From NCBI GenBank assembly GCA_029262115.1, contig JAJCZZ010000026.1:1-64000 (forward strand): a DNA stretch of 64,000 nt, written 5' to 3'. A model generated the notes under the pieces. It searched no databases, was not told the DNA's origin, and was given only the letters and a program-made list of their open reading frames with translations. The translations under genes were made by a program, and so were the position numbers. This DNA comes from Gemmatimonadota bacterium. Lineage in GTDB: Bacteria > Gemmatimonadota > Gemmatimonadetes > Longimicrobiales > Gaopeijiaceae. Below, piece by piece: positions 30,632-49,565 of this stretch (the stretch's first letter is position 1; the number at the start of each line of letters is the position of its first letter).

Positions 30632-30931
30632 ATGACCGACGACGCCGACCACTTCTACGACCGGGCCGACCGCAACTCCGATCGGGTCGGCCACTTCTCC
30701 GAACGGGCCGACCTCTACGCCCGGCACCGGCCCGACTACCCCCCGGCGGTGGCCGAGGCCGTGGCGGCGGCCGCACCGGGTCGCACCCGCGTCTGGGAGC
30801 CCGGATGCGGCTCCGGGCAGCTCACCCGGTCCCTGTCGGAGGCGTTCGCGCGGGTGGTGGCCTCCGATCCCAGCGCCGACCAGCTCGCCCGCGCCCCTCG
30901 CCTGCCGGGCTCGGCCGGCGACCGCCCATGA
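30632..30931 (+). pseudogene. N-terminal fragment of a class I SAM methyltransferase
   Basis: The 99-residue frame (ATG at 30632) starts like small methyltransferases (FSERADLYARHRPDYPPAVAE) and contains motif I (VWEPGCGSGQLTRSL) and motif II (VVASDPSADQLA). It then changes to GSAGDRP and stops. The family normally continues for another ~140 residues with motifs III-VI, which are absent. The TGA overlaps the ATG of the nucleotidyltransferase gene, suggesting that a deletion fused this 5' part to the next gene. Loss of function is likely. Confidence 0.6.
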
Positions 30932-32223
30932 CGGGCTCCACGGGCGGTGACGAAGCGACCCTTCCCTGGGAGCTGGCGCTCCCGGCCGAGGAGGTGGCCC
31001 GACGCCTCGAGTGGGGCCGGACCCGGGGCCACCCCGACTACGTGTGGCCGGAAGTGCCCCCCGGATCGTGGCGGAAGGCCGTCCGGGAGATCGAGGACAT
31101 CGTGCGACGCGTGCTGGTGGACGAGCCCGCGTCCCTCGCGGAGCGGGACGACCAGGCCCTGCGGGCCCTGGGAGTGGCGGCGTTCACGTCGGGCACGGGC
31201 CCGTTGCTGGGCCGCTGGGTCGAGGACGGACGGCTGGACGCAGCGCCGGAAGTGGCCCGCCTCCTGGCCGTCCACCTGGCCCACGGACGGATCCGGGCCG
31301 AGCGCTTCCGCACGGTCCTCGACCGGGCGGTGGACGCCCTGGCGGACATCGGTGTCCGACCGCTTCTCCTCAAGGGCGGACACACCGGGCCGGTCTACTT
31401 CCCGGAGTCGGGTGCGCGCCCCGCCGCCGATCTGGACCTCATGGTGGACCCGGAGCGGTTCGAGGCCGCCGAAGCGGCCCTCCGGGGCGCGGGTTTCACC
31501 CCCACGGGGCGCCAGCGGCGGCCGCTCAAGTCCGACTGGCTGGCCCCGGGATCGGCCGCGACGCCCCGGTCCCTGGAGGTGGCCCACGGGGAGAGCCAGT
31601 ACGCCGTGGACCTCCACGCCAGCCTGGCCCGCAACTTCTTCGGCGTCCGGACGGTGACCCTTCCCGCGACCCGCACGCCCGCCGGCGATCCGCCGGGTCC
31701 GGACGTGGACGTCCTGGCCCAACCGGCACTGTTCGCCCTCCACGCCCTTCACGCCTCGGAGGGGCTCCACTCCCTGACGTTGGTCCGCCTCGTGGAGCTG
31801 GCGCTGGTGGCGCGCCGGGACCAGGCTTCGGGCGACCTCGACGACGCCGATCTGGCCGCCCTCCTCGACGAGGCGGACGCGTGGCGTTTCGTCTACCCCG
31901 CCCTGGCGCTGGCGGAGCGGCTGGCGCCGGGCACGGTGGCGAAACCGGTCCTCGAGCGGGCCCACGCCGCCGCCCCGAGGGCCATGCGACGCGTGCTGGG
32001 CCCGATGCGTCCCGCCGACGCCCACCGACCCGAGGCGCTGTCGCTCCGGGAACGCTTCATGTGGTGTGCCGGTCCCGGGGATCACGTGCGGCGCCTCCTC
32101 CACATGGTGGCCCCGGCGCCCGCGGGGCGGTCTCCCGCCCGCCTGATCCGGACCTACGTCGACCGGCTCCGCCGGATCGGACGGGGGACCGTGGCCCGGC
32201 GCGACGACGAGCGGGCGGGCTGA
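30928..32223 (+). CDS. Nucleotidyltransferase-fold protein (NTP_transf_5 type)
   Basis: The 431-residue cytoplasmic protein contains the nucleotidyltransferase-like core LLLKGGHTGPVYFP with the acidic pair ADLDLMVDPERF (about residues 165-175) and a later DLHASLARNFFG. Proteins of this type occur in exopolysaccharide, exosortase and lasso-peptide gene clusters, often with an HPr-kinase-like protein; such a protein is encoded 7 kb away. The real reaction is not established for the family. The ATG at 30928 overlaps the stop of the truncated methyltransferase. It is convergent with the radical SAM gene to the right. Confidence 0.72.
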   Translation: MTGSTGGDEATLPWELALPAEEVARRLEWGRTRGHPDYVWPEVPPGSWRKAVREIEDIVRRVLVDEPASLAERDDQALRALGVAAFTSGTGPLLGRWVEDGRLDAAPEVARLLAVHLAHGRIRAERFRTVLDRAVDALADIGVRPLLLKGGHTGPVYFPESGARPAADLDLMVDPERFEAAEAALRGAGFTPTGRQRRPLKSDWLAPGSAATPRSLEVAHGESQYAVDLHASLARNFFGVRTVTLPATRTPAGDPPGPDVDVLAQPALFALHALHASEGLHSLTLVRLVELALVARRDQASGDLDDADLAALLDEADAWRFVYPALALAERLAPGTVAKPVLERAHAAAPRAMRRVLGPMRPADAHRPEALSLRERFMWCAGPGDHVRRLLHMVAPAPAGRSPARLIRTYVDRLRRIGRGTVARRDDERAG

Positions 32224-32290: not shown

Positions 32291-33805
32291 CTAGCGGATG
32301 GCTTCGGCGGACGGCCGGAGGTGTCCGTACTCCACGGGATGGGGCCGTGGCACCCGGGCCATGCGGCGCACCGCCTGGAGCAGCCCGGTCCGGTCGTACC
32401 GACCCCGCCGCCAGGGACCCGCCGCCACCATCCGGGCCAGCGCCTTGCCCCACCCCCGGGTGCGCCGGTCGTGGATGGACGGGAACCGGCTCTGGAGGAC
32501 GAGGACGAACCGCTCCACCTTCTCCTTCAGCTCGGGCGTCATCCACGGGACGTCCGGGTCTTCGTGGGTCATCCAACGCACCCACTCGGGGCGGGTCCAT
32601 TCCTCGAGGACCGTGGGCGTGCCCGACAGGGGGTCCACGTCGCCGTAGGCATCCCCTCGCTGGGGCGTCGGCGTGTAGAAGTAGGTGATCAGTTCGAAGT
32701 CCGGGTTCACGCCCTTCAACTCCCGGATGAAGTCCAGCGTCGTGTCGATCTCGGCTTCGGGATCCTCGGGCCCCCCGAAGCAGAACGAGAACTCGGGCAC
32801 GATTCCCCACTCCCGGGTCCGGGCCGCCACCTCCAGGGTCTGCTCCGTGGTGAGGTTCTTGTCCATGCTGGCCAGGACGTCGTTCGACCCGGACTCGGCG
32901 CCGAAGAAGACCATGGTCAGCCCCGACTCCTTCAGCGCGCGCCACGTAGCGTCCGAAAAGCGCAGCATCGCGTCCACCCGGGACTCGCACCACCACTTGA
33001 GGCCCAGGGGCTTCATGCGCTCGGCGAGCTCGACGGCGTGGCTCTCCTTCAGGAAGAAGTTGTTGTCGTAGAAGTGGACCGAGTCGACGCCGTGCTCCCT
33101 CACCAGGTATTCGAGGTGCCGGACCGTGCGCTCCGGCGTCTCCACCTTCTCCCGCCGTCCCCACATCGACACCACGCCGCAGAACTTGCAGCCGTAGGGG
33201 CACCCGATGGACGCCTGATAGACGGCGCCGCGCCGGCCCAGGAACGTCGGATGGATGTAGTCGTCGACGTCGATCTTGTGGTAGGGCGGCGGGGGCAGCT
33301 CGTCGGGGCCCTCCCAGGGGCGCTCCGGCCCGATCCGGCGCTCGCCGTCTTCCGTGCGGAAGCCGAGTCCGGCCACCGTCCCGGGATCCCGGGTGCCGTC
33401 CAGGACGTCCAGGAGCTTCACGAAGGTCCGCTCGCCCTGGCCCCGGACGATCCAGTCGACGTAGTCGGCGTCCAGCACCGGCGCCGGGTAGAGCGACGGG
33501 AAGAAGCCTCCCCACACGAGGGGAAGGTCGGGATACCGAGCCTTGAGCCGCTGGGAGAGGGGCACGGCGCTGACGAGCTGGGGACCCGGCATGACCGTGA
33601 GCGCCACGGCGCGGACCGGGTCCGCCGTCCCCCGTCGGGCCTCCACGTGGGCCACCACGTCGTCGAACTCGTCGACCGAGGGACGGTTGCCGTCCACGAT
33701 CTCCCAGGACACGCCGTCGGGAAGTGCGGCGCCCACCGACATGAGCGAGAGCGGAAAGCGACGGTTCTCGGGCCGGCAGACCTGCGGGTTGACGAAGACG
33801 ATCAT
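32291..33805 (-). CDS. B12-binding-domain radical SAM enzyme (first of two)
   Basis: The 504-residue enzyme has an N-terminal cobalamin-binding-like Rossmann part (residues 1-140, including PLVWGGFFPSLYP). The radical SAM core binds its 4Fe-4S cluster through Cys202, Cys206 and Cys209 (GCPYGCKFC). FFGAESGSNDVLASMDKN and EFSFCFGGPEDPEAEID are typical of the core. Such enzymes do methyl transfers, ring changes or C-C bond chemistry on lipids, sugars or antibiotics. Whether B12 is bound is not certain: a DxHxxG motif is not evident. It is followed downstream (minus strand) only by the convergent nucleotidyltransferase gene. The three-domain fusion gene lies just upstream. Confidence 0.82.
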   Translation of the reverse strand: MIVFVNPQVCRPENRRFPLSLMSVGAALPDGVSWEIVDGNRPSVDEFDDVVAHVEARRGTADPVRAVALTVMPGPQLVSAVPLSQRLKARYPDLPLVWGGFFPSLYPAPVLDADYVDWIVRGQGERTFVKLLDVLDGTRDPGTVAGLGFRTEDGERRIGPERPWEGPDELPPPPYHKIDVDDYIHPTFLGRRGAVYQASIGCPYGCKFCGVVSMWGRREKVETPERTVRHLEYLVREHGVDSVHFYDNNFFLKESHAVELAERMKPLGLKWWCESRVDAMLRFSDATWRALKESGLTMVFFGAESGSNDVLASMDKNLTTEQTLEVAARTREWGIVPEFSFCFGGPEDPEAEIDTTLDFIRELKGVNPDFELITYFYTPTPQRGDAYGDVDPLSGTPTVLEEWTRPEWVRWMTHEDPDVPWMTPELKEKVERFVLVLQSRFPSIHDRRTRGWGKALARMVAAGPWRRGRYDRTGLLQAVRRMARVPRPHPVEYGHLRPSAEAIR

Positions 33806-33850
33806 GAGGCTCGGGGCAGAGTCATGGGGATGGCGAGGGGCCGGTCCGGG

Positions 33851-36598
33851 TCACGACGGGCCGTTCCGGGTCACGACGGACCAGGCGCGGCGGAGCGTTG
33901 CGTTGGCGCCGAGGACCGCTCCACACACCGCCAGGGTGTCGGCACCGATCCCCAGGGTTCGATACCCGTGGCCTTCGAGCCGTTCCTTCGAGGCGATGCG
34001 CTCCTCGGGCTCGAGGTGGACGTCCTCGTAGAGAATGACGGCCGGTGCCGCGCCGGTGAGATCCAGCGTGTCCAGGATCCTCCCGTCGTGCCCCTCGGCG
34101 TCGACGACGACGACGTCGGGCACGGAAACGCCGTGGGCGACGCCGAGCTCGGCCAGGGTGACACACCGGACGGTCCGGGTCGAAACGGAGGCGCCGGGCG
34201 GGGCGTGCCGTTCGAGGTGGGCAGGGCTCAACGAGCCGAGCTGGTCCAGGTCCCCGCGGCCGTCCTCGACGACGAATTCGTGGAAGCCGCGGCTGCCCGG
34301 GTGCGCGTCCACCGCCGCCTCCTCGATGCGGAACCGGTCGCCCCACGGGCGATAGTTCTCCCGGAGCCGGGCGCACGGCCCCGGCGCCGGCTCCACCAGC
34401 ACGCCGCTCCAGTTCGGATACCTGCGGAACGACCAGAGCGGATCGTGGATCACGCCGTCGTGGGCCCCCACCTGGATGAACCCTACCGCGCGGCGGGACG
34501 CCAGCAGCGCGTGGATCACGCAGTCGACGGGGTCGCGGAAGCAGGCGAAGCGGGCCGGGGGCCACGGGATCCAACGCCACGCCGGGGACTCCCGCCCCAG
34601 GATGGGTCGGATCAGCCGCCGGAGCGCGCGCCGGCTCGGGCGGGCGTCCCCGGCCTCGACCAGGAGTTCCGCCCTGCGGCGGGTGGCCGCCGCCTTCAGC
34701 TTTCCCTCGGGGAGAAGGGGCAGGAGGCCGTCGTAGGTCCGGGCCGAAATCTGGAACGCCTCGGATGCCCCGTGCCGCCGGGTCGTGCGGCCGGCGTGGT
34801 CCCGGACCCGCGCCAGGCGGCGGGGCACCGCGTGGGTCGGAGCACGGAGAGCCAGGCGGATCAGGAAGTCCAGGTCCTCCCGGATGCCCGGGTCCGTTCG
34901 GAAGCCCCCCACCTCCTCGACCAGGGTGCGCTCGACCAGGACCGTAACGATGGACACCGGCGCTTCGGCCTTCACCAGGGCGAGGGCCACGTCGCCGCTC
35001 ACGGGGCGCCAGTGGCCGGCCCGCGCCGCCACGGGGTTTCCCCCCGCGTCGACGTGGTCGTAGAGCGTGTAGCTCCAGGCGGCGCCGGCCCCACGGATCT
35101 CGGCCAACTGCACGTCCAGCTTGTCCGGGAGCCAGAGGTCGTCCGAATCGAGGAAGGCCAGAAAGGTGCCCCGGGCCTCGGCGATCCCGCTGTTCCGGGC
35201 CGCCCCGGCCCCTCCCCCCTCGGCGCCGCGTACGACGCGGAGGCGGGGATCGGCCACGGCGTCCAGGTACCGCACGGTCCCGTCCGTGGAAGCGTCGTCG
35301 ACCACGATGAGCTCGAGATCGCGGAACGTCTGGGCCAGGACGGAGTCCACCGCCGCGGGCAGCCACTCGACCCGGTCCCGGGTCGGGACGACCACGGACA
35401 CCGTCGGGCCTCCCGACGCCCCGTTCGGGCGGGAGGGGGCCGTCATGGCGGGGTCCCGGCCGCGGTCGCCGCCCGCAGTCGCCGTCGCGGGGTCCGTGCG
35501 CCGGTCGAAGATCCGCCCCGCCTCGGGCCAGGCCCCCACGATCCGGGCCGCCACCGTCCCGAGGGGTGCGGCCACGACCTTTTCCGATCCCTGCACCGTG
35601 AGCGGCTCCATGGCCACACCGGCCTGCTCGAAGAGGGGGGCCAGGTGCGCGTCTCCGAGGACCGGGCGGCCTCCAACCACCACCAGGGCCACGTCCGCGG
35701 CGGTGGCGTCGAGGACCGGACGGCGCAGACAGATCAGATCCGCGCGGGCACCGGGCTCCAGACTGGGTGCCTCCAGACCGAGGCGCCGGGCCGCGGTCGC
35801 GCCCACGGCGTCCTCCAGGCGGCGGTCGTCCAGGATCCCCAGGCGCCGGGCGTGGCGGATCTCGTCCAGGAGCGTCCCGTCTGCGGTCAGGAGCGAATCG
35901 GAGCCCAGGAGGACGTCGATGCCCGACGCGATGAGGGCTTCCGGCGCGGTCCGGCCGAAGAGGAAGTGGTTGGACGAGGGGCACCACACCATGGCCGAGC
36001 CGGCCGTCCTCAGCCTCTCGACGCCCTCGTCGTCCACGCCCACCAGGTGGACCGCCAGGAGCGAGGCGTCCAACAGCCCCAGCTCGTCCAGGCGTCGGAC
36101 CTCGTCGGCGTCCCCGGGCGTGGTCCCCTCGGCCAGATGGATGCAGAGCGGCAAGCGAGGGTCGCCGGCCCCGCTCCGCACCGGGTGAGGGTCGAACCCG
36201 AGGGAGTGGACCTGCCGGACCCGGGCCACCCGGATCGGAAACTTGTGCTCGAACGCGGCTTCCCACGCATCGTGATGCACGACCGTGGTCACCCCGGCCA
36301 GGAGGTTCTTCAGCGCACCGAAGAGGAGGGCGTCCGTCCGGTCCACCGCTCTGCCCCGCTCGATCTCGTCGGACCAGCGGGTGTGGAGGTCCCGCCCCCA
36401 TGCGTAGGCATCCGGGTACGGCGGATCGCCCAGACGGGGGTAGTGGTTCCGATGGAGATGGTCGTGGCCGTTGATCAGCCCGGGGACGATCCATCCGGGG
36501 CCGAGGTCCACGGTGGGTCCATCCACGGCCTCGGCATCGACCAGGCGGCCGTCCTCCACCGCCACGGCGGCGCGGTCGGTACGGAGGCGGTACCTCAT
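33851..36598 (-). CDS. Three-domain fusion: amidohydrolase - GT2 glycosyltransferase - FkbM methyltransferase
   Basis: One uninterrupted frame encodes 915 residues. Residues ~1-380 are a metal-dependent amidohydrolase of the AtzA/TrzA deaminase type with all ligands: NGHDHLH, IHLAEG, AVHLVG, CPSSN and GSDS. Residues ~397-660 are a GT2 glycosyltransferase (VSVVVPTRDR, VVDDASTDGT and FLDSDD). Residues ~704-905 are an FkbM methyltransferase (GFIQVGAHDG, VVVVDAEGHDGRI). An ATG at 35446 just before the GT2 part could restart translation. Linkers are Ala/Asp/Arg-rich and show no decay. The product could hydrolyse, glycosylate and O-methylate one sugar intermediate. It lies between a radical SAM gene and methyltransferases on the same strand. 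Confidence 0.82.
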   Translation of the reverse strand: MRYRLRTDRAAVAVEDGRLVDAEAVDGPTVDLGPGWIVPGLINGHDHLHRNHYPRLGDPPYPDAYAWGRDLHTRWSDEIERGRAVDRTDALLFGALKNLLAGVTTVVHHDAWEAAFEHKFPIRVARVRQVHSLGFDPHPVRSGAGDPRLPLCIHLAEGTTPGDADEVRRLDELGLLDASLLAVHLVGVDDEGVERLRTAGSAMVWCPSSNHFLFGRTAPEALIASGIDVLLGSDSLLTADGTLLDEIRHARRLGILDDRRLEDAVGATAARRLGLEAPSLEPGARADLICLRRPVLDATAADVALVVVGGRPVLGDAHLAPLFEQAGVAMEPLTVQGSEKVVAAPLGTVAARIVGAWPEAGRIFDRRTDPATATAGGDRGRDPAMTAPSRPNGASGGPTVSVVVPTRDRVEWLPAAVDSVLAQTFRDLELIVVDDASTDGTVRYLDAVADPRLRVVRGAEGGGAGAARNSGIAEARGTFLAFLDSDDLWLPDKLDVQLAEIRGAGAAWSYTLYDHVDAGGNPVAARAGHWRPVSGDVALALVKAEAPVSIVTVLVERTLVEEVGGFRTDPGIREDLDFLIRLALRAPTHAVPRRLARVRDHAGRTTRRHGASEAFQISARTYDGLLPLLPEGKLKAAATRRRAELLVEAGDARPSRRALRRLIRPILGRESPAWRWIPWPPARFACFRDPVDCVIHALLASRRAVGFIQVGAHDGVIHDPLWSFRRYPNWSGVLVEPAPGPCARLRENYRPWGDRFRIEEAAVDAHPGSRGFHEFVVEDGRGDLDQLGSLSPAHLERHAPPGASVSTRTVRCVTLAELGVAHGVSVPDVVVVDAEGHDGRILDTLDLTGAAPAVILYEDVHLEPEERIASKERLEGHGYRTLGIGADTLAVCGAVLGANATLRRAWSVVTRNGPS

Positions 36599-37362
36599 CG
36601 GCTCAGGCAGACCTGGAGCACCAGCGGAAGGTCCCGCTGCTCGTCGAAGCGATCGCCGCGGCCGGCGGCGGTCCAGTAGGGCCGCTCCTCCTCGTCGGGG
36701 GTCAGGTCGTGCACCGTATCCACCCGCCATCCGGCGTCCGCGGCGGCGCGGCGATGGTCCTCGGCGTCGTGGCGATGGTGCGCCACCTCCCGCACCACGC
36801 CGCCCGGGTCCCGGAACGTGCGGGCGTGTCCCGCGTCGGCAGCGGCGGGATGGAAGTCAGTCACGACCAGGTGGGCGTCGGACGACCGAGCCACCCGGCC
36901 CAGCTCCCGGTAGGCGTCCCCGAGCTGCGGGACGTGGCCCAGGACCAGGCGACACCAGACGGCGTCGAAGGCGTCGGCGCGGAACGGGAGGGCGCGCATG
37001 TCCCCGGCGGCCAACGAGACGACCGCCTCCCGATCGGCCGGACCCTCCCGATCTGCCCGACCCTCCCGATCTCCCTGATCCGCCCGACCCTCCCGGTCCT
37101 CCCGATTCCCCCGCTCCGCCCGCTGCGGTCGGTCCGCCGTCAGCATGGCCGGGACCAGGTCCACTCCGATGCGGAGGACGGCCCCCTCGGCGTCGCGGAG
37201 CCGCCGGCCCGTGCCGCACCCCACGTCCAGGAGCGTCCGGCCGCCCACGCCGGGGGCGAACGTGGCGACTCCGCGCCGCTCCAGGGCCGAGAGGGCGGTC
37301 TCCCGACGGTAGGAGGGCGCCCAGAGGCGGTAGGCCTCCCGAGGGGAAAGGGCCGGCGTCAT
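36595..37362 (-). CDS. SAM-dependent methyltransferase with a low-complexity insertion
   Basis: The 255-residue protein has motif I LLDVGCGTGRRL at about residues 43-54, an acidic post-I region (RIGVDLVPAMLTAD), DAVWCRLVLGHV and the C-terminal HDLTPDEEERPYW. This is the UbiE-like small-molecule class. Between motif I and the next strand it carries a ~30-residue insertion made of 9-nt repeats, encoding Arg/Glu/Asp/Gly-rich sequence (DREGRAD units). The ATG at 37362 overlaps the stop of the upstream didomain methyltransferase gene, and its own stop overlaps the fusion gene start (ATGA). The substrate is probably a sugar or lipid of the island. Confidence 0.8.
   Translation of the reverse strand: MTPALSPREAYRLWAPSYRRETALSALERRGVATFAPGVGGRTLLDVGCGTGRRLRDAEGAVLRIGVDLVPAMLTADRPQRAERGNREDREGRADQGDREGRADREGPADREAVVSLAAGDMRALPFRADAFDAVWCRLVLGHVPQLGDAYRELGRVARSSDAHLVVTDFHPAAADAGHARTFRDPGGVVREVAHHRHDAEDHRRAAADAGWRVDTVHDLTPDEEERPYWTAAGRGDRFDEQRDLPLVLQVCLSR
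37041..37125 (-). repeat. 9-nt-based minisatellite inside the methyltransferase gene
   Basis: The plus strand reads GACCCTCCCGATC at 37041, 37059 and, with one change, 37086. All spacings are multiples of 9, so the frame is kept and the insertion becomes a charged linker rather than a frameshift. Confidence 0.6.
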
Positions 37363-39098
37363 GCGAGGCTGCCCTCCCACATGTCGAACCGGGACGACGG
37401 GCGCCGGCCGGCGAGGCGCGCCAGCGGTCCCCGTAGCTCGTAACGCATGGGATACCGGACACGGTGCCGCCGCCACGTGAGCCCCAGGCCCCTGGACGCC
37501 GCCGCCACACGATCCGCTGTCAGGAACTCGATGAAGGGAGGCGCCATCAGGTCGTCCGCCCGTTCGCCGAACCGTTGGTGCATCGTGCGACGCTTCTCCT
37601 CGACCATGGCCGCCCCGTGTCGCTCCGCGCGATAGAACGGCGAATCCAGGACCACGATGCGGCCGCCGGGTCGGAGCACCCGTACGGCCTCGGTCAACGT
37701 GCGGTCCAGGGCCAGGGCGTAATGGAGCGAGGCGTTGAACACCGCCAGGTCCCACCCGCCGTCGTCCAGGGGCAGCGCCTCGAACGACGCGGCGATGCGG
37801 GGCGGGATGCCCGGTTCGTGCCCGCGGAACGCCTCGGCGGCCCCCAGGCCGTCCACGGCGTCGGTCCGGACGTCCACCGCCACCCCCCGGTGCCCCGCGG
37901 CCACGACCCTCCGGGCCAACCACCCCGGCCCGGCGCCGAGGTCGAGGACGTCCAGCCGCCTGGGGCGCACCGCTTCGGCCCGGGGCGCCAGGATCGCCGA
38001 GACGAACCGGTCGAAGGTGCGGGCCCGGACCGCCCACTGGGGAGCGGTCGGGCCGTCGCTCAGGTACGGGAGGGCCAGGAGCTCGTCCGCGCCCCCCCGC
38101 CCCTCGGCTGCGCGGTGCTGCCCGTACGTCTGCCGGAACCGGCGGAGGGCGGCGGAGGGGTCGGGCGACGGAGAGGGCCGGAACTCCGGCGACTGTGGGC
38201 GGAGCCCGCTTCCGTCGGTCCCGGCCGGGGCGTGGTCCGCCACCGCCGACCGGGGCGCACCTCCCTCGACCCTTTCGGCCGGTACCTCCGTCCGCTCCAG
38301 GCGGAGGAGCACGTGGTCGCCCAGCCGGGCCAGCGGGCGCTCGACGTACCGGTCGAGTCGCTCAAGGAGGCCCAGGAGCCGCGGGTGGCGCGAGATCCAC
38401 GGCTCCGCGGCACTCGGCGGCACGAACACCCCGATGCCCCGGGTCTCCACGAGACGGAATTCCGGTTCGAAGGCGCGGCGGACGTCGGTGGGGGAAGGAT
38501 ACCAGACGGAGAACGGCACCCCGCCCAGCCGGGCCTGCACCGGACCGCGCTCCAGGCGGCGGAAGGCCGCCGCGGGGTCGCCGCGGAGAAGCTGGACCAG
38601 GACCTCGCCGGGCGCGAACGGCCCGAAGACGACCAGGGCCGCAGTGGCGCCTGGAGGAAGGAGCGCCGCCAGTCCCCGCGCCACCGGCCGGAGATCCTCG
38701 ACGCAGTTCAGGGACGCGAAGTTGGAATAGGCCCCGTCGAAGGGTCCGTCCGCGCGCCGGTCGGCGGCGAACGTGTCCAGATCCTCGAGGACCGCCGTGG
38801 CCGTCTCCACCCGATCCGCCAGCCCGGCCCGCTCCACCTTCTCCCGCGCCCGCTCCACCATCTCGGGGGAGCCGTCGGTCAGGGTCACCCGGTACCCGCG
38901 CTCGGCGAGCCAGAGGGCGTCTTCGCCGGTCCCGCCCCCCAACTCCAGGAGGTGGGCCCCCGGGGGGAAAGCGTCCCCGAGGTGGCCGCGCACGGCACGG
39001 CGCTGGGCGGCGACGCTCCGCCACTCGCCAAAGCGGGCGTCGAAGGTGTCGGCAGCGGTGCCGAACGCCCGGACGGCGAGCGGGCCGTCCTCACCCAT
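37359..39098 (-). CDS. Tandem didomain SAM-dependent methyltransferase
   Basis: The 579-residue protein holds two class I methyltransferase domains. Domain A (residues ~1-270) has motif I LLELGGGTGEDALWLAERGY and the post-I VTLTDGSPEM. Domain B (about 300-575) has VLDLGAGPGWLARRVVAAGH and AVDVRTDA. The domains are only distantly alike, so this is a fusion of two different enzymes rather than a recent duplication. They are joined by a Pro/Ser/Glu-rich linker (about 275-305). Two methylations on one or two sugars of the polysaccharide are a reasonable guess. It is the first gene of a minus-strand operon and divergent from the HPr-kinase-like gene, with a 91-bp promoter region between (39099-39189). 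Confidence 0.8.
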   Translation of the reverse strand: MGEDGPLAVRAFGTAADTFDARFGEWRSVAAQRRAVRGHLGDAFPPGAHLLELGGGTGEDALWLAERGYRVTLTDGSPEMVERAREKVERAGLADRVETATAVLEDLDTFAADRRADGPFDGAYSNFASLNCVEDLRPVARGLAALLPPGATAALVVFGPFAPGEVLVQLLRGDPAAAFRRLERGPVQARLGGVPFSVWYPSPTDVRRAFEPEFRLVETRGIGVFVPPSAAEPWISRHPRLLGLLERLDRYVERPLARLGDHVLLRLERTEVPAERVEGGAPRSAVADHAPAGTDGSGLRPQSPEFRPSPSPDPSAALRRFRQTYGQHRAAEGRGGADELLALPYLSDGPTAPQWAVRARTFDRFVSAILAPRAEAVRPRRLDVLDLGAGPGWLARRVVAAGHRGVAVDVRTDAVDGLGAAEAFRGHEPGIPPRIAASFEALPLDDGGWDLAVFNASLHYALALDRTLTEAVRVLRPGGRIVVLDSPFYRAERHGAAMVEEKRRTMHQRFGERADDLMAPPFIEFLTADRVAAASRGLGLTWRRHRVRYPMRYELRGPLARLAGRRPSSRFDMWEGSLA

Positions 39099-39189
39099 GG
39101 CCCGGACTCCCCTCGACTGGCCACCACCTTCGGCCGGGTCGACGTGGAGGGTAGCTTTGCCGGTGTCGCCATCCCCATGGAGAGAGCAC

Positions 39190-40215
39190 GTGCCTCACCC
39201 CGCCGCCGGTCCGCTCGTCCTGCCCGTCCTCGGGATCCCGGTCCGCTTCCACGCCGACGACCCCCGCCTCCGGGCCGCGGCCCGGAGGGCGTTCGGGCGG
39301 TGGCGGGCACTCGACGAGGCCCTGACCGTCCCGGAGTCCGCAGAGTCCGGTCCCACGATCCGGCTCCTGTTCGATCCCGCCGCCCGGGAGGAGCGCTCGG
39401 AGGTGCGGTCGGCAGTCTCGACCATGCCCCTGGAAACCGGAAGACCGGCGACGCCCGCCACGACCATCCGGACCCCCCGCCCCGGTGCTCTGGTCCTGAC
39501 GGCCCCCGGCATCGAGGCCCGGGCGGACGCGGGCCGGAACGAGGCCACGGTGGAGGTCGCCGAGCCGGCCCTCGCAGACGAGGACATCCTCCGCCACGCC
39601 CTCGACACGGTCGTCCTCTTCCTCCTCACCCGCCTGGACCGCCAGCCGGTCCACGGCGCCGCCGTCGCGCGGGACGGGGCCGGCGTGGTTCTGGCCGGCG
39701 CCAGCGGCGTGGGAAAGAGCACGTTGGCCTACGCAGCCTGGCTGGACGGCTTCCAGGTCCTCTCGGACGACGCCGTCTACGTGCAGCTCGACCCGGCCGT
39801 CCGCGTGTGGGGGATGGGGCGACCCGCCCATCTCCGGGCGGACACCGTCGCATGGTTTCCGGAGATCGTTCGGGCCCCCCTCAGGGAGCGACCGTCCGTC
39901 GACCGCAAACGCGCGCTGCCCGTTCATGACGATGCGCGGGACGAAGAATTGGCGCCGCCGCTCATGGTCCAGCGGACGGCCCTGTGCCTCCTGGAGCGGG
40001 GCGCCGGCCCGACCCGGGCCGAGGCGGTGGACCCCGACGTCCTGGTCACGCGCCTCGCGTCGAGCCTGGATCCGGGGTTCGACGTCTTCCGGGACACCAT
40101 CCGCCCCCGGCTCTCCGCCCTCGCCCGGGGAGGGGCGTGGCGCCTGGTCATCGGCGGCCCGCCCCGAGAAGCGATCCCGATCCTCCGGGAGATCCTTCCC
40201 GATTCCACGGGATGA
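39190..40215 (+). CDS. HPr-serine-kinase-like protein of a polysaccharide cluster
   Basis: The 341-residue protein has a P-loop GASGVGKST at residues 170-178, followed by LAYAAWLDGFQVLSDDAVYV, which is characteristic of HPrK-like proteins in exosortase/EPS and lasso-peptide clusters. The N-terminal half is a beta-rich domain of unknown role. The GTG at 39190 with GGAGAG just upstream fits better than the ATG at 39177, which is out of frame. It probably phosphorylates a cluster-specific molecule rather than HPr, since no PTS gene is nearby. It is convergent with the second radical SAM gene (46-bp gap). Confidence 0.75.
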   Translation: MPHPAAGPLVLPVLGIPVRFHADDPRLRAAARRAFGRWRALDEALTVPESAESGPTIRLLFDPAAREERSEVRSAVSTMPLETGRPATPATTIRTPRPGALVLTAPGIEARADAGRNEATVEVAEPALADEDILRHALDTVVLFLLTRLDRQPVHGAAVARDGAGVVLAGASGVGKSTLAYAAWLDGFQVLSDDAVYVQLDPAVRVWGMGRPAHLRADTVAWFPEIVRAPLRERPSVDRKRALPVHDDARDEELAPPLMVQRTALCLLERGAGPTRAEAVDPDVLVTRLASSLDPGFDVFRDTIRPRLSALARGGAWRLVIGGPPREAIPILREILPDSTG

Positions 40216-40261
40216 GAGCCCGCGGGGCGCCCCGCCTTGCCCGCCCTCCGGCGCCGGACGC

Positions 40262-41746
40262 TCATCCGACCGTCGTCGGCGCCTCGGAGCGGAACCCGTC
40301 CGCCGACGCCCCGAGGCGCTCCCACCGCTGGTCCAGCCGTCGCCGTCCCTCGAGGTCGTCCGGCGCGATCTCCCGCACCTCGTCGTGCAGGAGGGCCCGA
40401 ACCGACCGGTAGAAGGGCGTGCGGAAGGTCCCCTGGAACATCATGGCCAGTTCGTCCGAGTCCTCCCAGTTGCGCTTGGTCCCGAGCTGCCCACGCACCC
40501 TCTCGAAGAAGGGGGTACCGGGCAGGGGGTAGGAAACGGATACGCCCACGTCGTCAGGCCGCTCCTCCCGGACCAGGTCCCGGGTGGCCAGGATGTCCTC
40601 CCACTCCTCGCCGGGATAGCCGAGCTGGACGAACCATCCACTCCCCACCCCCGCCGCCCGGAGGTTGCGGGTGGCGTCCCGGGCTTCGGCCACCGTGGAG
40701 CCTTTGTCCATGGCGTCGAGGATGCGCTGGGAGCCTGACTCGACGCCCATCCACACCTCCTCGCACCCGGCCCGCTTCAGGGCCCGACACGCCTCGGGCG
40801 CCATGAGGTTCACCCTCGACTGCACCATGAACGGGGTCGCGGCATTCCGACGGGCCACCTCGTCGCCGAAGGCCTCGATCCACTCCACCGTCAGTCCGAA
40901 GATGTCGTCGGCGAACCACAGGTGGTCCGGGGCCACCTCCTCCCGGAGACGGGCGATTTCCTCGGCCACCGCCTCCGGGCTCCGCTGGGCATAGCGCCGC
41001 CCGAACACCGGCTTCGCGCACCAATTGCACCCGTAGGGGCATCCCCGGGAGGTGACCACGTTCCACGAGAACCGCCCGTGGGCGTCGGTCCAGGCCCGGC
41101 GATAGCGCTCGTGGTCCACCAGGTCCCAGGCGGGAAGCGGCAGCGCGTCCAGGTCGCGCAGCCCGGTGCGCGGGAGGGTCCGCCGGATCCGACCGTCGAG
41201 CGCCTGAGGGCCTCTGCCGTTGACAGGCAGGCTCCGCCCCGTCGTCCCGTCGAGGGGCAGCGCGAGCCCCGGAACGTCGTGCACGGAGGCGTCGGACCGG
41301 CCCGTCCAGGCGGCGAACAACTCGACCGCCGCCGCCTCCACCTCCCCCACGATGACCGCGTCGGCTCCGGCCTCCAGGTAGCGCTCCGGATGATCCGTCG
41401 CGTCGGAGCCGTTGACGGCCACCCGGGCCCCGGCACCCTTGGCGGCCCGGATCATGGCCACCGTGGCCTCCCGCATCTGCACGGTGCACATCTTCGTGAG
41501 GAAGTTGAAGTTGTCCTCGAAGATGCCCACTACGAGGGGGCGCTCCCGCGCGACGCGCTCGGCGAACGCTTCGGGTCCGGGGGCCAGCATGGCATCGAAG
41601 AGGCCCACCTCGTACCCCTCCTTCCGGAGCACGGCGGCCGCCAGCAACGTTCCCAGGGGCGGGTACGGCTTCATCTTCTCCCGCTGCTTCGCGTCGCGCC
41701 GCAGGTAGTACGAATGCGCGAGGAGGATCCTGGATGCGTCAAGCAT
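40262..41746 (-). CDS. B12-binding-domain radical SAM enzyme (second of two)
   Basis: The 494-residue enzyme starts MLDASRILLAHSYYLRRDAK and has a cobalamin-type N-terminal part in residues 1-150 (PPLGTLLAAAVLRKEGYEV, EAGADAVIVGE). The radical SAM cluster is held by Cys236, Cys240 and Cys243 (GCPYGCNWC), with EVWMGVESGSQRILDAMDKG in the core. It is a distant paralogue of the 32-kb enzyme. The longer frame to 41944 adds Arg-rich residues unlike the family, so I used the ATG at 41746. The ABC exporter lies upstream on the same strand after a 59-bp gap. Confidence 0.83.
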   Translation of the reverse strand: MLDASRILLAHSYYLRRDAKQREKMKPYPPLGTLLAAAVLRKEGYEVGLFDAMLAPGPEAFAERVARERPLVVGIFEDNFNFLTKMCTVQMREATVAMIRAAKGAGARVAVNGSDATDHPERYLEAGADAVIVGEVEAAAVELFAAWTGRSDASVHDVPGLALPLDGTTGRSLPVNGRGPQALDGRIRRTLPRTGLRDLDALPLPAWDLVDHERYRRAWTDAHGRFSWNVVTSRGCPYGCNWCAKPVFGRRYAQRSPEAVAEEIARLREEVAPDHLWFADDIFGLTVEWIEAFGDEVARRNAATPFMVQSRVNLMAPEACRALKRAGCEEVWMGVESGSQRILDAMDKGSTVAEARDATRNLRAAGVGSGWFVQLGYPGEEWEDILATRDLVREERPDDVGVSVSYPLPGTPFFERVRGQLGTKRNWEDSDELAMMFQGTFRTPFYRSVRALLHDEVREIAPDDLEGRRRLDQRWERLGASADGFRSEAPTTVG

Positions 41747-43683: not shown

Positions 43684-44292
43684 ATGCCCATCCGGCTCCT
43701 CGTCGTCATCGGCCTTCTGGCCGCACCTGGTGGAGCCCTGCACGCCCAGGTGGACGCGCCGCAGCTCCGGCTCCGTCCCGGCGACGGGGTGCGCCTCCAG
43801 GTCGAGGACGAGCCCGGCCTCGCGGGCACGCGCCCGGTGACCGAGGACGGGACGGTGCTGCTGCCGCTCATCGGGATCGTACCGGTGGCGGGGCGCCCGT
43901 TCGAGGACGTCCGGGAGGCGGTGCGCGCCCTCTACCGGACCGAGCTTCCGGACGCGGCCGTGGTGGTTACCGCGGTGCTCCGGATCCCCGTGCTGGGCGA
44001 GGTCCGCACGCCGGGGCTGGTCGAGGCCGACCCGACCTATACTCTGGCCGACGTGCTCGCCGCGGCCGGCGGTCTCGCCCCCGACGCCAGCGCGGACCGC
44101 ATCGACCTCCTGCGCGAGGGCGCGAGTCGGCGGGTCTCCCTGACGTCGTGGAGCAGCGAAGCGCTCCACCTCCGTTCCGGGGACCAGGTCCACGTGGGAC
44201 GCCGGGGGTGGGCGAGCCGGAACCTGCCCGTGATCGTGTCCGCGGCGGGCTCGGTGGTCGCGGCGGTCCTCACCAGCCTCATCCTCCGATGA
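43684..44292 (+). CDS. Wza-like polysaccharide export protein
   Basis: The 202-residue protein has a signal peptide ending GALHAQ (about residue 20). A polysaccharide export (PES) domain follows (LRPGDGVRLQVED, DGTVLLPLIGIV) and then a SLBB-like motif (VLGEVRTPGLVEADPTYTLADVLAAAGG). A C-terminal hydrophobic helix (VIVSAAGSVVAAVLTSLIL) probably sits in the membrane. It likely forms the outer-membrane or periplasmic part of the channel. It is shorter than E. coli Wza. It is the first gene of the plus-strand operon and overlaps the Wzz-like gene by 4 nt. Confidence 0.87.
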   Translation: MPIRLLVVIGLLAAPGGALHAQVDAPQLRLRPGDGVRLQVEDEPGLAGTRPVTEDGTVLLPLIGIVPVAGRPFEDVREAVRALYRTELPDAAVVVTAVLRIPVLGEVRTPGLVEADPTYTLADVLAAAGGLAPDASADRIDLLREGASRRVSLTSWSSEALHLRSGDQVHVGRRGWASRNLPVIVSAAGSVVAAVLTSLILR

Positions 44293-46247
44293 CCGAGCCG
44301 ACGGAAGCCCGCACCTCACCGGTGGCCCTCTGGCACCGCGTCGTCCGGCGGCGCTGGAGGACGGGCCTCGCCATTGCCGGGGCGGTGACGACCCTCGGCG
44401 CCGCGGTCCTCCTGCTGTCGCGACCGATCCACCGGGCCGAGGCGGCCCTGCGCCTCGGCGAACCCCCGCCTCCCGGCGGGATTTCCCCGGCGGGCGGGGT
44501 CTTCTCGTTCCTCCAGCTCGGGGGGGATCCCTTCGCCAACGACCTGGAGCTCCTGGCCAGCCGCTCCCTGGCCGAGGGCGTGGTCGAGGCCAACGCGCTG
44601 GCGGTGAAGCTGGACGCCCCGGCGGAGTGGTATCGCGACTCCCTCGTGTCGGCGCTGGCCGCGTCCCGCGACACGGACGAGGGCGCCTACGAGGTCCGCT
44701 GGCTCGACGACGGGCAGCTGTCGGTCCGGCAGGTGGCGCCGACCGATTCGGCCGTGGGCACGGTGGCGCCGGGCACGCCCGTCCGCTTCGGCGGCGTCAC
44801 GGCCGTGTTCCTCCCCCATCGCCCCGGGATGCCGGAGACCGTCCGCGTGTCCACGGTCCCCTTCGGCGAGGCCGTGCGCAGCCTGCGCGGGTCCGTGTCC
44901 GTCGAGCGTCCCCGACGGGAAGCGAATGTGGTCGCTCTGGCCTACGACCACCCCGACCCCGCCCTGGCCCACGCCGTCGTGGCCACCGTCATCGAGGAGT
45001 TCGTCCGCCTCCGCACCGACCTCCAGCAGCGGGAGAGCGGCGAGACCGTGGACTCCCTCCGGGCCGTCTCCCAGCGCACGGCCCTGGAGCTGCGCGGCGC
45101 CGAAGAGGAGCTGGAACGCCTCCAGCGCGTGGACCGCATCGTCGCGCCCGACGCCCAGATCGAGGCGCTGGTCGAACGGCAGACGGAGTTGCTGTCCCAC
45201 CTCCAGCGCGCCCGGGGCGAACTGGCCGGCGTCGACGAGGCCCTCCGGCGCCTCGAAACCGTGGAGGATCCGGCCCGGGCGTGGACGGCGCTGCTGTCCT
45301 ACCCGGCGTTCCTCGAGAACGAGACGCTGGGCCAGCTCCTGTCGCGCATTACCGAGTTCCACGCCGAGCGGGAGGCCCTGGCGGCCCGGCGCGCCGAGAC
45401 CAACCGTGAGGTGCGCGTCCTCGACGAGCAGATCGCCTATCTGGACGCCTCACTGCGCCAGGTGGCCCGGGAGTACCGCACCGGGCTCCTCGAGCAGGTC
45501 GCGGTCCTCGAGCCGGAGCTGACGTCCCTGGATCGCCTTCTGGAAGGCCTTCCCGCCCGTGCCCTGGCGTTGGGCCGCCGTCAGCGAGACGTACGGCTGC
45601 TCTCGGAGGTCTTCGTCCTGACCGAGCAACGGCTGCGCCAGGAGGAACTCCGCGACGCCCTGACCTACTCCAACATCCAGGTCATCGACCCGCCGGCCCT
45701 GCGGGACCGGCCGGTCTGGCCCCGGAAGAAGCTGGGGCTGGCGGTCGTGCTCGTCATCGCCGGAGGGTGCGGTCTCCTGGGGATGGCCGTTCGGGAGCGC
45801 ACCGATCCCCGCCTGCGCTCCGTGGAGGACGTCGAGGCCGCCCTGGGCGCGCCGGTCCTGGCCGTCCTGGTGGCGTCCGGCGGCGGGGCGGCCGTGACGC
45901 CGGCCGTGGCCGACGGTCTCCTCCACCGGGCGGGCGTCGGGAGCAACGGCTCCGGCGCCCTGGTCCTCGTGACGACCCGGTCCGGCGGCCGCTCCGAGGG
46001 CACGGCCGACGGGCTCGCCACGGCGGCGGGGAACGGCTCGGACCCTCCACGAATCCACCGCATAGGGCCGGGACTCGATCCGGCGGCCCGGGTGGAGGGA
46101 CCGGCCGCGCTGATGGTTGAGGCCGGACAGACGACCGTCGACGAGGTCCGCCGGGCCCTCCGTGCCGTGACCGACGCCGGCGGACGGGTGGTCGGAGCGG
46201 TGCTGGTGACCCGGGACGAGGCGGAGAGGGAACGAGTATGGCGGTGA
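44289..46247 (+). CDS. Wzz/GumC-like polysaccharide chain-length protein
   Basis: The 652-residue inner-membrane protein has an N-terminal membrane helix (about residues 28-48) and a large periplasmic coiled-coil part (about 240-490). The second helix follows the motif DPPALRDRPVWPRKKLGLAV, which marks the Wzz/PCP family. The cytoplasmic tail (about 530-652) lacks the Walker A of a Wzc-type tyrosine kinase and ends in VLVTRDEAERERVWR. It is thus a PCP protein that sets polymer length without kinase control. It overlaps its neighbours at both ends. Confidence 0.87.
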   Translation: MTEPTEARTSPVALWHRVVRRRWRTGLAIAGAVTTLGAAVLLLSRPIHRAEAALRLGEPPPPGGISPAGGVFSFLQLGGDPFANDLELLASRSLAEGVVEANALAVKLDAPAEWYRDSLVSALAASRDTDEGAYEVRWLDDGQLSVRQVAPTDSAVGTVAPGTPVRFGGVTAVFLPHRPGMPETVRVSTVPFGEAVRSLRGSVSVERPRREANVVALAYDHPDPALAHAVVATVIEEFVRLRTDLQQRESGETVDSLRAVSQRTALELRGAEEELERLQRVDRIVAPDAQIEALVERQTELLSHLQRARGELAGVDEALRRLETVEDPARAWTALLSYPAFLENETLGQLLSRITEFHAEREALAARRAETNREVRVLDEQIAYLDASLRQVAREYRTGLLEQVAVLEPELTSLDRLLEGLPARALALGRRQRDVRLLSEVFVLTEQRLRQEELRDALTYSNIQVIDPPALRDRPVWPRKKLGLAVVLVIAGGCGLLGMAVRERTDPRLRSVEDVEAALGAPVLAVLVASGGGAAVTPAVADGLLHRAGVGSNGSGALVLVTTRSGGRSEGTADGLATAAGNGSDPPRIHRIGPGLDPAARVEGPAALMVEAGQTTVDEVRRALRAVTDAGGRVVGAVLVTRDEAERERVWR

Positions 46248-46855
46248 GCCCACCGGGTCGACTCCGCCGGGCCGTGGAGATGGCGGTGGCCGCGGCCCTC
46301 CTGACCCTGACCACTCCGCTCCTCGCCGTCGCGGCCCTGGCCATCCTGGTCACATCGGGCCGGCCCGTCTTCTACGGGCATCCCCGAGTGGGGATGGGGG
46401 GACGCCGGTTCCGGTGCTGGAAGCTCCGCACCATGGCGGTGGACGCGGACGCCGCGCTGCGGACCGATGACACCCTCCAGGAGGCGTGGCGGACCAACGG
46501 ATACAAGATCCCCGGAGACCCCCGCCGCACGAAGCTGGGCCGCCTGCTGCGGCGAACCTACCTGGACGAGATCCCCCAGCTCTTCAACGTCATGCACGGG
46601 ACGATGGCGCTCGTGGGTCCCCGGCCGGTGGTGGCCGAGGAGCTGGAGGAATTCGGCCCCTGCGCCGACGAGCTGCTGTCCGTCCGCCCGGGCATCTTCG
46701 GCGCGTGGAACAGCCGTGGACTGGAGCGTCCGGCCTATCCGGAACGGGCCGATGTCGAGCTCGAGTACGTGCGCACCCGATCGGTGCGCCGCGACCTCGG
46801 CATCCTCCTCGCCTCCATCCCGGTCGTGTTGCGCGGACACCACGAGGACGCATGA
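46238..46855 (+). CDS. Undecaprenyl-phosphate sugar phosphotransferase (priming transferase)
   Basis: The 205-residue protein has one N-terminal membrane segment (about 13-38). The conserved catalytic region includes KLRTMAVDADAAL, GDPRRTKLGRLLRRTYLDE, then IPQLFNVMHGTMALVGPRPV and the RPGIFGAWNSRG end. This is the short (PglC-like) class of bacterial sugar transferases that attach the first sugar phosphate to undecaprenyl phosphate. It therefore starts the repeat unit. It overlaps the Wzz-like gene by 10 nt and the flippase by 4 nt. Confidence 0.9.
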   Translation: MAVSPPGRLRRAVEMAVAAALLTLTTPLLAVAALAILVTSGRPVFYGHPRVGMGGRRFRCWKLRTMAVDADAALRTDDTLQEAWRTNGYKIPGDPRRTKLGRLLRRTYLDEIPQLFNVMHGTMALVGPRPVVAEELEEFGPCADELLSVRPGIFGAWNSRGLERPAYPERADVELEYVRTRSVRRDLGILLASIPVVLRGHHEDA

Positions 46856-48423
46856 CGGGGAGGGAGCGCCCGGGAGCGCTCGGCGCCGAAGATTCCGGAG
46901 CTGACGAGTCGGGCGCGGAAGCGTCCGGAGGCGGGGAGCCCGACGCCGGCGCGGTGCGCCGGGTGCTCCTGAACGCCGTCGCCCTCCTCGGGGCCTACGT
47001 GCTCCCCCGCCTCTTCACGTTCGGCGCCGCCGTGGTGGCGGCCCGGGCCCTCGGCGTCGAGACGTTCGGCCGGTACGGGACGGTGGCCGCGCTGGCCGTC
47101 ATGCTCTCCATCGTCTCGACCCTGGGCATGATGCAGCTTCTCGTCCGCGAGGTGGCTCGGGACCCGGAGGGGGCGCCCGACCTCCTGGGCGCGGCCCATC
47201 TCGTCAAGGCGGTGAGCGGGGCGGCCATGCTCCTCGTGCTGGGAGGGCTGGCAGCCGGACCCCTGGGCTACGGTCGGGACGCCGTGACGGCGGCGCTCCT
47301 CCTGGGCGCCTCCTACGCCGTGGGCTCCTTCGTGGAGAACCTGGGAGCGTGGGTCCAGGGCGTGGAGCGGATGGGGGCCTGGACCGTGGCGCAGGCCCTC
47401 TTCGGACTCGTTTCCGGGGGCCTGGGGATGACGTTCGCGCTCACCACCCGCAGCCTGGTCTGGTTCTGCGCGGCGCCCCTGATCGGGCAGGCGGTGGCTC
47501 TGGCGTATCTGGCCCGGAAGGTGCCGGCGTCCGTTCTGTGGCGGTGGCGCGTGCCCGGCTCGGACGCCCGTCGGCTGGTCCGAGGACTCGTGCCCTTCAC
47601 CGCCGCCACGGTGGCCCTCACGGCGTACTACAAGATCGACGTGGTGATCCTCGAGGCGCTCCGTGGCGCCGGCGAAGCGGGTGTGTACGCCGCCGCCTAC
47701 AAGTTCGTCGATGTCGCGCAGGCGCTGGCCCTCGTGGTGGCCATGTCGGTCTATCCCCGGTTGTCGCGGGCCGCCGCCCGGGCCACGCCATCCGAGCGGC
47801 ACGAGCCCGCCCCCGCCGGCCTCCCCGAACGGCACGATTCCGCCCGGGCGGAACGGAGCGCGTCGGCCGCGACCCGCGTGGCCGAGCTCCTCCTCCTGGC
47901 CGCCGTCCCCGCCGCCGCCCTGCTGTGGCTGCTCCGGACCCCGATCGTCGCGGTCGTCTTCGGCGCCGACTACGGCGCGTCCGCGGCCGTGCTGGCCGTC
48001 CTGGCGCCCATCCTGCCGCTCCTGGCCCTCAACGCCCTGGGATCCTACGTGCTGGCCGCCGCCGAGCGGATGCGGGTCGTGGCGACCCTGTTCGCTGGGG
48101 CCCTGGGGCTCAACGTCGTCCTCAACCTCCTCTGGATCCCCGGCCTCGGAGCCCGGGGGGCCGGCCTGGCCATGGCCGCCTCGGAGGCCGCGCTGGCGGG
48201 GGCCATGCTCGTGGTCCTGGGACGCCATGCGGCGGCCCCCTCCCTCCGGGTCGTGGGGGCGGCGCTGGCCGCGGGAGGAGCGGCCGTCCTGGCCGCCCGG
48301 GTTCCGCTTCCCGCCCTGGCGGTGGTGGCGCTGTACCTGGCGGCGGCCGCCGGGATCTACGCCGTCGCCCGTGTGCTGGCCGCAGGAGAGTGGCGGCTCC
48401 TGCGGGAGGCGGTCGGGCGATGA
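46852..48423 (+). CDS. Polysaccharide flippase (Wzx/MATE-like)
   Basis: The 523-residue protein has about 12-14 hydrophobic segments and the flippase markers FGRYGTVAALA and the middle charged loop (SERHEPAPAGLPERHDSARA, about 320-340). A central segment VALTAYYKIDVVILEALRG, with K/D in the membrane, is typical. It moves the lipid-linked repeat unit to the periplasmic side. The N-terminus has a ~35-residue Gly/Ala/Glu-rich extension before the first helix. The gene overlaps both neighbours by 4 nt. Confidence 0.88.
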   Translation: MTGRERPGALGAEDSGADESGAEASGGGEPDAGAVRRVLLNAVALLGAYVLPRLFTFGAAVVAARALGVETFGRYGTVAALAVMLSIVSTLGMMQLLVREVARDPEGAPDLLGAAHLVKAVSGAAMLLVLGGLAAGPLGYGRDAVTAALLLGASYAVGSFVENLGAWVQGVERMGAWTVAQALFGLVSGGLGMTFALTTRSLVWFCAAPLIGQAVALAYLARKVPASVLWRWRVPGSDARRLVRGLVPFTAATVALTAYYKIDVVILEALRGAGEAGVYAAAYKFVDVAQALALVVAMSVYPRLSRAAARATPSERHEPAPAGLPERHDSARAERSASAATRVAELLLLAAVPAAALLWLLRTPIVAVVFGADYGASAAVLAVLAPILPLLALNALGSYVLAAAERMRVVATLFAGALGLNVVLNLLWIPGLGARGAGLAMAASEAALAGAMLVVLGRHAAAPSLRVVGAALAAGGAAVLAARVPLPALAVVALYLAAAAGIYAVARVLAAGEWRLLREAVGR

Positions 48424-49565
48424 AGGTCCTCTATGTCTCGAAGGCGCTGGTCGTGGCCGCGTACCGCGACAAGATCCGGGAACTGGCCCGCCACGTGGAG
48501 GTGGAGGCGGTGATCCCCGACCGGTGGGACGGGGCACCCGCGGAGACGTCGCCCGACGGCGTGCCCGAGCCCCGGCGCGTGCCCGTCCGCTTCCCGGGAC
48601 ACAACCACTTCCATCTGTACCGGCAAGCCGCCCGCTGGCTCGACGCGGCGGCCCCGGATCTGGTCCACGTGGACGAGGAGCCCTACAGCCTGGTCACACT
48701 CCAGCTCGGCCGGTTGTGCCGGCGCCGGGGCATCCCCTGGCTGTTCTTCGCCTGGCAGAACCTCGACCGGCGCCTCCCTCCGCCCTTCGGCGTCGTACGC
48801 TCCGCCGTGTTCCGTGGCGCCCGGGGCGCCGTGGCCGGGACGCCGGCCGCCGCCAGGGTCCTCCGCGCTACCGGCTACCAGGGGAGCCTGGAGGTGATTC
48901 CCCAGTTCGGGGTGTGCCCGCGACGCTTCTCCCACGATCCAGAGTCCGGGCGGAGGGTGCGGGAGCGCCTCGGCATACCCACGGACGCCTTCGTGGTCGG
49001 GTACGGGGGCCGCCTCGTGCCGGAGAAGAACGTGTCCGGTCTGTTGGAGGCGTTCCGACGACTGTCCGCGGACCACGGCGGTGGCGTCGGGGCAGGTAGC
49101 GAGCCCCACCTCGTCGTCGTGGGCGACGGTCCCCAGCGGGACGCGCTCGCCGCGGCCGCCCGGACCGCCGGCCTGGCCGACCGGGTGCACTTCACGGGCC
49201 TTGTGCCCTCCACCGAAATGCCCGGACACCTGTCCGCCATGGACGTCCTGGTGCTGCCGACGGTCGGGACCGCGACGTGGGCTGAGCAATTCGGCCGGAT
49301 CCTCGTCGAGGCCATGGCGTGCGGCGTGGCCGTGGTGGGAACACGCCACGGGGAGATCCCGGAGGTGATCGGGGACGCGGGCGCCCTCGTTTCACCCGGC
49401 GACGTTCCGGCCCTGGTGGCCGCCATCGACGCGCTCCGCGACCGGGAGGTCCGGGACACCCGTTCCGCCGCCGGTCGGGCCCGGTTTCTGGCCCACTACA
49501 CCCAGGAGCGTGTGGCGGAGCGGACGGTGGCGTACTACCACGAGCTCCCGGGGGGACGGGCGTGA
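48420..49565 (+). CDS. GT4 glycosyltransferase 1
   Basis: The 381-residue protein has a two-domain GT-B fold with the donor-binding motif EQFGRILVEAMACG (E-x7-E form, about residues 282-295) and VVGDGPQRDALAAAA. The signature VVGYGGRLVPEKNVSGLLEA, with a Lys that binds the donor phosphate, is also present. It adds one sugar to the growing repeat unit on the cytoplasmic face. Start overlaps the flippase stop (ATGA). The donor and linkage are unknown. Confidence 0.87.
   Translation: MKVLYVSKALVVAAYRDKIRELARHVEVEAVIPDRWDGAPAETSPDGVPEPRRVPVRFPGHNHFHLYRQAARWLDAAAPDLVHVDEEPYSLVTLQLGRLCRRRGIPWLFFAWQNLDRRLPPPFGVVRSAVFRGARGAVAGTPAAARVLRATGYQGSLEVIPQFGVCPRRFSHDPESGRRVRERLGIPTDAFVVGYGGRLVPEKNVSGLLEAFRRLSADHGGGVGAGSEPHLVVVGDGPQRDALAAAARTAGLADRVHFTGLVPSTEMPGHLSAMDVLVLPTVGTATWAEQFGRILVEAMACGVAVVGTRHGEIPEVIGDAGALVSPGDVPALVAAIDALRDREVRDTRSAAGRARFLAHYTQERVAERTVAYYHELPGGRA

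Follow-up and report, generated by a model that had tools for sequence, protein, structure and literature searches.

Proteins that combine a glycosyltransferase with a methyltransferase have been described in flagellin glycosylation islands, where GT2 or GT41 proteins bear a methyltransferase domain (PMC4875605); these proteins lack an amidohydrolase, and their fused domain is not termed FkbM. Amidohydrolases of the cytosine-deaminase/ATZ-TRZ type, such as PA adenosine deaminase (4gbd/4dyk), AtzA (4v1x), TM0936 (1p1m) and DR_0824 (2imr), have the same metal ligands, HxxE motif and TIM barrel as the N-terminal module described here, which differs from them in its length (~370 vs ~440 residues), in an identity of ~20% and in reaching no curated family model. 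The TuaG-/chondroitin-synthase-like GT2 glycosyltransferases share the Pfam GT2 domain and the DxD and ED motifs with the second module, but the GT2 domain is joined here to an amidohydrolase. The third module passes the curated cut-offs of the FkbM methyltransferases (PF05050/TIGR01444) and is a C-terminal fusion module, whereas the relatives found are stand-alone.

The window analysed, a stretch of 64,000 nucleotides from a Gemmatimonadota draft genome of 110 contigs, contains an open reading frame of 915 codons on the minus strand, with its ATG at 36598 and its stop at 33851. It encodes, in this order, an amidohydrolase (residues 1-367), a linker of ~31 residues, a GT2 glycosyltransferase (~399-655) and an FkbM methyltransferase (~686-915). 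The presence of three enzyme domains in a single frame, proposed in an earlier note on this DNA, was borne out by the reading frame and by Pfam, with all three domains above the curated cut-offs; the coordinates in that note are correct, and it named no strand. A 959-residue version starting at the upstream ATG 36730 would read into the preceding gene, and the start at 36598 was preferred; the plus-strand reading of 33851-36598 has no start codon at its beginning and does not contain the described motifs. The features of the locus are the following:

33851..36598, minus strand: fused amidohydrolase-GT2-FkbM reading frame, 915 residues, ATG start (open reading frame list, translation, Pfam)
35498..36598, minus strand: amidohydrolase module, residues 1-367, compact, ATZ/TRZ-adenosine-deaminase-like (Pfam, alignment, AF2, fold match)
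35405..35497, minus strand: linker, residues 368-398, rich in Ala/Gly/Arg/Pro/Asp/Thr, predicted disordered (sequence, coding score, AF2)
35444..35446, minus strand: internal in-frame ATG, Met385, probable former GT2 start (sequence)
34634..35404, minus strand: GT2 glycosyltransferase module, residues ~399-655 (Pfam)
33854..34543, minus strand: FkbM methyltransferase module, residues ~686-915 (Pfam, NCBIfam)
36595..37362, minus strand: MT3, SAM methyltransferase, in ATGA overlap with the fused frame, fused to the amidohydrolase in Acidobacteriota (Pfam)
37359..39098, minus strand: MT1-MT2, tandem SAM methyltransferases (Pfam)
40262..41746, minus strand: rSAM_A, B12-binding radical SAM protein
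32291..33805, minus strand: rSAM_B, B12-binding radical SAM protein (Pfam, NCBIfam)
39190..40215, plus strand: HPr-kinase-like protein, recurring with the cassette described below
30928..32223, plus strand: NTP_transf_5 protein, recurring with the cassette
44289..52227, plus strand: exopolysaccharide genes, namely GNVR/Wzc-like (652 residues), Bac_transf, Wzx-like, Wzy_C and glycosyltransferase-like
53345..55782, plus strand: two GT4-type glycosyltransferases, recurring with the cassette

Between 56500 and 61900 the GC content drops from ~75% to ~60-65%, and three reading frames tested in this region gave no Pfam matches; it is possibly acquired or unusual DNA.

The analysis of the amidohydrolase module places it in the amidohydrolase superfamily, with the HxH, His, His and Asp metal ligands set in a TIM barrel. 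The Amidohydro_1 domain scored 39 bits in Pfam against a cut-off of 25, and an alignment of 71 homologues revealed that the metal ligands H45, H47, H154, H184 and D234 and the acid E157 are invariant. The module alone was modelled by AF2 with a pLDDT of 94.9, ordered up to residue ~371 and with residues 372-384 disordered, whereas the full-length AlphaFold model was poor beyond residue 367, its alignment containing few GT2 and zero FkbM relatives. The best structures retrieved by Foldseek were adenosine-deaminase-like and triazine-hydrolase structures (E down to 1e-17, ~20% identity, probability 1.00), and some of the top fold and profile matches carry bound adenosine analogues or are named MTA/SAH deaminase. 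All curated deaminase models of NCBIfam remained far below their cut-offs, and the module does not qualify as an SAH/MTA/5'-deoxyadenosine deaminase equivalog (PRK07228, 27.2 vs 522 bits). The deaminase-type chemistry proposed earlier agrees with the fold, the nearest structures being of the adenosine-deaminase/AtzA type, and the module could plausibly carry out deaminase-type chemistry on a small compound from the cassette or remove SAM by-products.

The other two modules were assigned by Pfam in the case of GT2 (Glycos_transf_2, 104.8 vs 23.3 bits) and with two curated models in the case of FkbM (Methyltransf_21/FkbM, PF05050, 45.5 vs 22.7 bits; TIGR01444, 44 vs 37.7 in NCBIfam). The translation of the GT2 module contains the motifs VVDDASTDGT, DSDD (484-487) and RED (573-575), including the DxD and the catalytic acid, and that of the FkbM module contains QVGAHDG, VEP and VVDAEGHDG, with the SAM motif present. 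With the amidohydrolase ligands invariant and the GT2 and FkbM motifs legible, the active-site motifs are intact as the earlier note had stated.

The survey of relatives covered ~90 related loci from Gemmatimonadota to Acidobacteriota, Proteobacteria and Chloroflexi (80 public plus whole-genome loci, some of them identical contigs). Amidohydrolase homologues within Gemmatimonadota are mostly 54-63% identical, with 59% in an order-level relative (G061), and proteins 33-58% identical were found in Sphingomonas, Caulobacter, Gluconacetobacter, Rhodanobacter, Acidobacteriota, Chloroflexi, Bacteroidota, KSB1 and Latescibacterota. No amidohydrolase in the ~90 loci has a C-terminal fusion, and homologues with intact ends stop at family residue ~345-400, matching the end of the domain in the window. 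The complete amidohydrolase-GT2-FkbM fusion was sought in the order, the phylum and public genome contigs and was found in this one genome only; the domain order is unusual, in agreement with the earlier note, and a conserved architecture is not indicated (0 of ~90 related loci). In a genome of the same class (G288), the genes rSAM_A, MT1, MT2, rSAM_B, MT3 and amidohydrolase lie on one strand, followed by a stop, 28 nt and the GT2 gene, an arrangement that represents the first two modules in unfused form. The GT2 gene lies immediately upstream of the amidohydrolase gene in G062, GT2 homologues lie beside the cassette glycosyltransferases in G369, G172 and G392, and an equally close homologue in G084 is located outside the cassette. 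Relatives of the FkbM module were found as unlinked stand-alone genes only, one of them among glycosyltransferase genes, and no match spanning both GT2 and FkbM was obtained in 395 genomes of the phylum (three candidates scored per genome) or in plasmids. Separate genes with an intervening stop, the pattern that the earlier note would have read as an assembly error, are thus present in relatives for the amidohydrolase and GT2; they argue for a local fusion and do not by themselves demonstrate such an error.

The continuity of the frame bears directly on this question. In the +1 frame a TGA at 35445 overlaps the GT2 ATG at 35446 (ATGA), as would be expected if two overlapping genes had once lain here, and since these codons overlap, a single indel could create or destroy the fusion. 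It may accordingly be asked if a one-base indel in the draft assembly has merged an amidohydrolase gene with an overlapping GT2-FkbM gene. Such an artefact would be in line with the stop found at the end of the amidohydrolase in all relatives, with the similar ATGA arrangement by which the ATG of the fused frame (36598) overlaps the stop (36595) of the upstream methyltransferase gene in the same operon, and with the 110 contigs of the draft. Coding potential was examined with a codon-usage model from whose training the fused gene had been excluded, and the fused frame outscored both alternative frames over both junctions. Codons 365-384 are coding-like in the fused frame only (+2.1 vs -5.0 and -5.4), although the lead of this frame is weak over residues 370-399 (+0.4 to +0.8 per 20 codons). 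Moreover, codons 365-385 contain no homopolymer longer than four bases, the nearby cassette genes are unbroken and an A after an ATG is not rare by chance, which makes an assembly artefact an unlikely origin of the frame.

The ATG at 35446 had been suggested as the start of a second, shorter product, by which the gene would yield a 531-residue GT2-FkbM protein in addition to the 915-residue fusion. The codon exists, is in frame and lies at the beginning of the GT2 module, at a distance from the domain similar to that of the stand-alone GT2 in G288; the ribosome-binding site is not convincing, with GGA as the only Shine-Dalgarno match, and there is no conserved start for comparison, so that translation of both products is doubtful, if slightly less so than an assembly artefact.

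The preferred reading, to which a probability of about 0.65 is given, is that adjacent genes of one orientation have genuinely fused in this lineage alone, and that two of these genes belong to the cassette. It rests on the single open frame, the three complete domains, the ordered amidohydrolase with a disordered linker behind it and the separate genes in relatives. Points against it are that the architecture is present in one genome only, that the coding signal is weak over residues 370-399, that no relative was found with FkbM joined to this GT2 and that the ATGA overlap is the expected remnant of a split gene pair. The event is probably local, since the first two enzymes are encoded by separate, sometimes adjoining, genes in relatives, and the architecture looks like a recent fusion and not like a conserved assembly line. 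Under the preferred reading, the amidohydrolase and the GT2 would be the cassette members, and the FkbM module would come from a common type of polysaccharide-associated methyltransferase, in a genome whose cassette adjoins exopolysaccharide genes. The amidohydrolase would act as a mononuclear-metal hydrolase of the deaminase type, its target being a small compound from the cassette, with MT3 as its probable closest partner, the GT2 would transfer a nucleotide-activated sugar and the FkbM module would O-methylate the glycan. Each of the three modules would fold by itself, with flexible linkers between them, and with modules of this kind the fusion would provide co-translation and equal amounts of the enzymes, rather than a demonstrated channel.

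The loci, retrieved with the amidohydrolase alone, indicate that this enzyme is part of a widely shared gene cassette, which also encodes B12/radical-SAM proteins, small methyltransferases and glycosyltransferases. Where more than 7 kb of upstream sequence was available (60 loci), rSAM_B was found in 49, rSAM_A in 45, MT1 in 45, MT3 in 43 and MT2 in 37; owing to a low level of similarity among MT1, MT2 and MT3, individual genes may have been assigned to the wrong one of the three. A SPASM radical-SAM gene, the HprK-like and NTP_transf_5 genes and two GT4-type glycosyltransferase genes recur with the cassette, and the full core set (MT3, rSAM_A, rSAM_B, MT1, MT2) is present near the amidohydrolase of the window, all within 32291-41746. 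The cassette was seen at 32291-41746 (minus strand) and in loci L022-L028, L032-L111 and L146-L158, from many phyla. The radical-SAM/SPASM gene adjoins the amidohydrolase in L022 (11340-12416), L107 (8880-9950) and L028 (8469-9611), and is weakly similar to the cytosylglucuronate decarboxylase BlsE and to SynChlorMet cassette proteins. In L053 (Sphingomonas sp. 7/4-4, NZ_CP115960.1) several frameshifts seem to interrupt the cassette genes, which points to sequencing errors in the record.

Other genes of the cassette are also fused. In at least 10 Acidobacteriota loci (L060, L065, L071, L075, L081, L085, L086, L089, L098 and L108) MT3 and the amidohydrolase share one open frame of ~650-710 codons, and these frames imply repeated fusion of cassette genes. 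Such proteins (L108, L060 and L071, for example) resemble that of the window in having a homologous amidohydrolase and cassette in one frame, and differ in the partner, which is an N-terminal MT3 there and a C-terminal GT2-FkbM here. MT1 and MT2 share one frame in the window (37359-39098) and in G020, and are separate genes in most other relatives.

These data bear on the function of the fused protein. According to the first interpretation, a single rare sugar would be handled in assembly-line fashion by one polypeptide, which takes off an N-group, transfers the sugar and adds a methyl group to the product. Three intact modules, a deaminase-like fold and the GT2-methyltransferase proteins known in flagellin glycosylation islands (PMC4875605) speak for it, as does the polysaccharide neighbourhood, which was confirmed by the exopolysaccharide genes adjoining within the window. 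However, the amidohydrolase is associated across phyla with genes for B12/radical-SAM proteins and small methyltransferases, 77 of 80 loci having one or more of the core cassette genes, and in nearly all of these loci it stands free of GT2 and FkbM. For FkbM, unlinked stand-alone genes were all that was found. In addition, the nearest amidohydrolase structures act on nucleosides and triazines, not on sugars, and the sequence reveals no substrate. That all three modules act on one sugar is a guess to which the pattern in relatives gives no support, and the rare-sugar assembly line is considered improbable.

A housekeeping role, in which the amidohydrolase deaminates S-adenosylhomocysteine or 5'-deoxyadenosine, which the radical-SAM enzymes and methyltransferases of the cassette release as inhibitory by-products, is somewhat less improbable and still unlikely. 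If this were its function, it would be understandable that the enzyme is fused to a methyltransferase, to FkbM in the window and to MT3 in other genomes; the cassette is rich in SAM enzymes, MT3-amidohydrolase fusions exist and the top fold and profile matches are those adenosine-deaminase-like proteins. Against this, the identity to them is only ~20%, the NCBIfam deaminase models are far under cut-off (PRK07228 reaching 27 of 522 bits) and the domain is shorter than these enzymes.

A broader interpretation, tentative although more probable than either of these, is that the fusion may be a Rosetta-stone link in an undescribed biosynthetic cassette, whose product would be a component with many methyl groups, either linked to an exopolysaccharide or synthesised together with it. 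This cassette would comprise two B12-radical-SAM proteins, three small methyltransferases, the amidohydrolase, often a SPASM radical-SAM protein, and HprK-like, NTP_transf_5 and glycosyltransferase proteins, and it extends over Gemmatimonadota, Acidobacteriota, Alpha-, Beta- and Gammaproteobacteria, Chloroflexi, Bacteroidota, KSB1 and Latescibacterota. No description of the fusion or of the cassette was found in open-licence full-text papers.

The fusion itself is a modest novelty, built from known families in a domain order that none of the relatives examined has. It ties the amidohydrolase to the GT2, whose genes recur in the same neighbourhood elsewhere, and in this way points to the cassette, which is the better lead, as it is widely distributed, lies beside polysaccharide genes here and appears in none of the papers searched. 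The cassette is also testable, since, to judge by their record titles, its carriers Sphingomonas, Caulobacter, Rhodanobacter and Edaphobacter look culturable.
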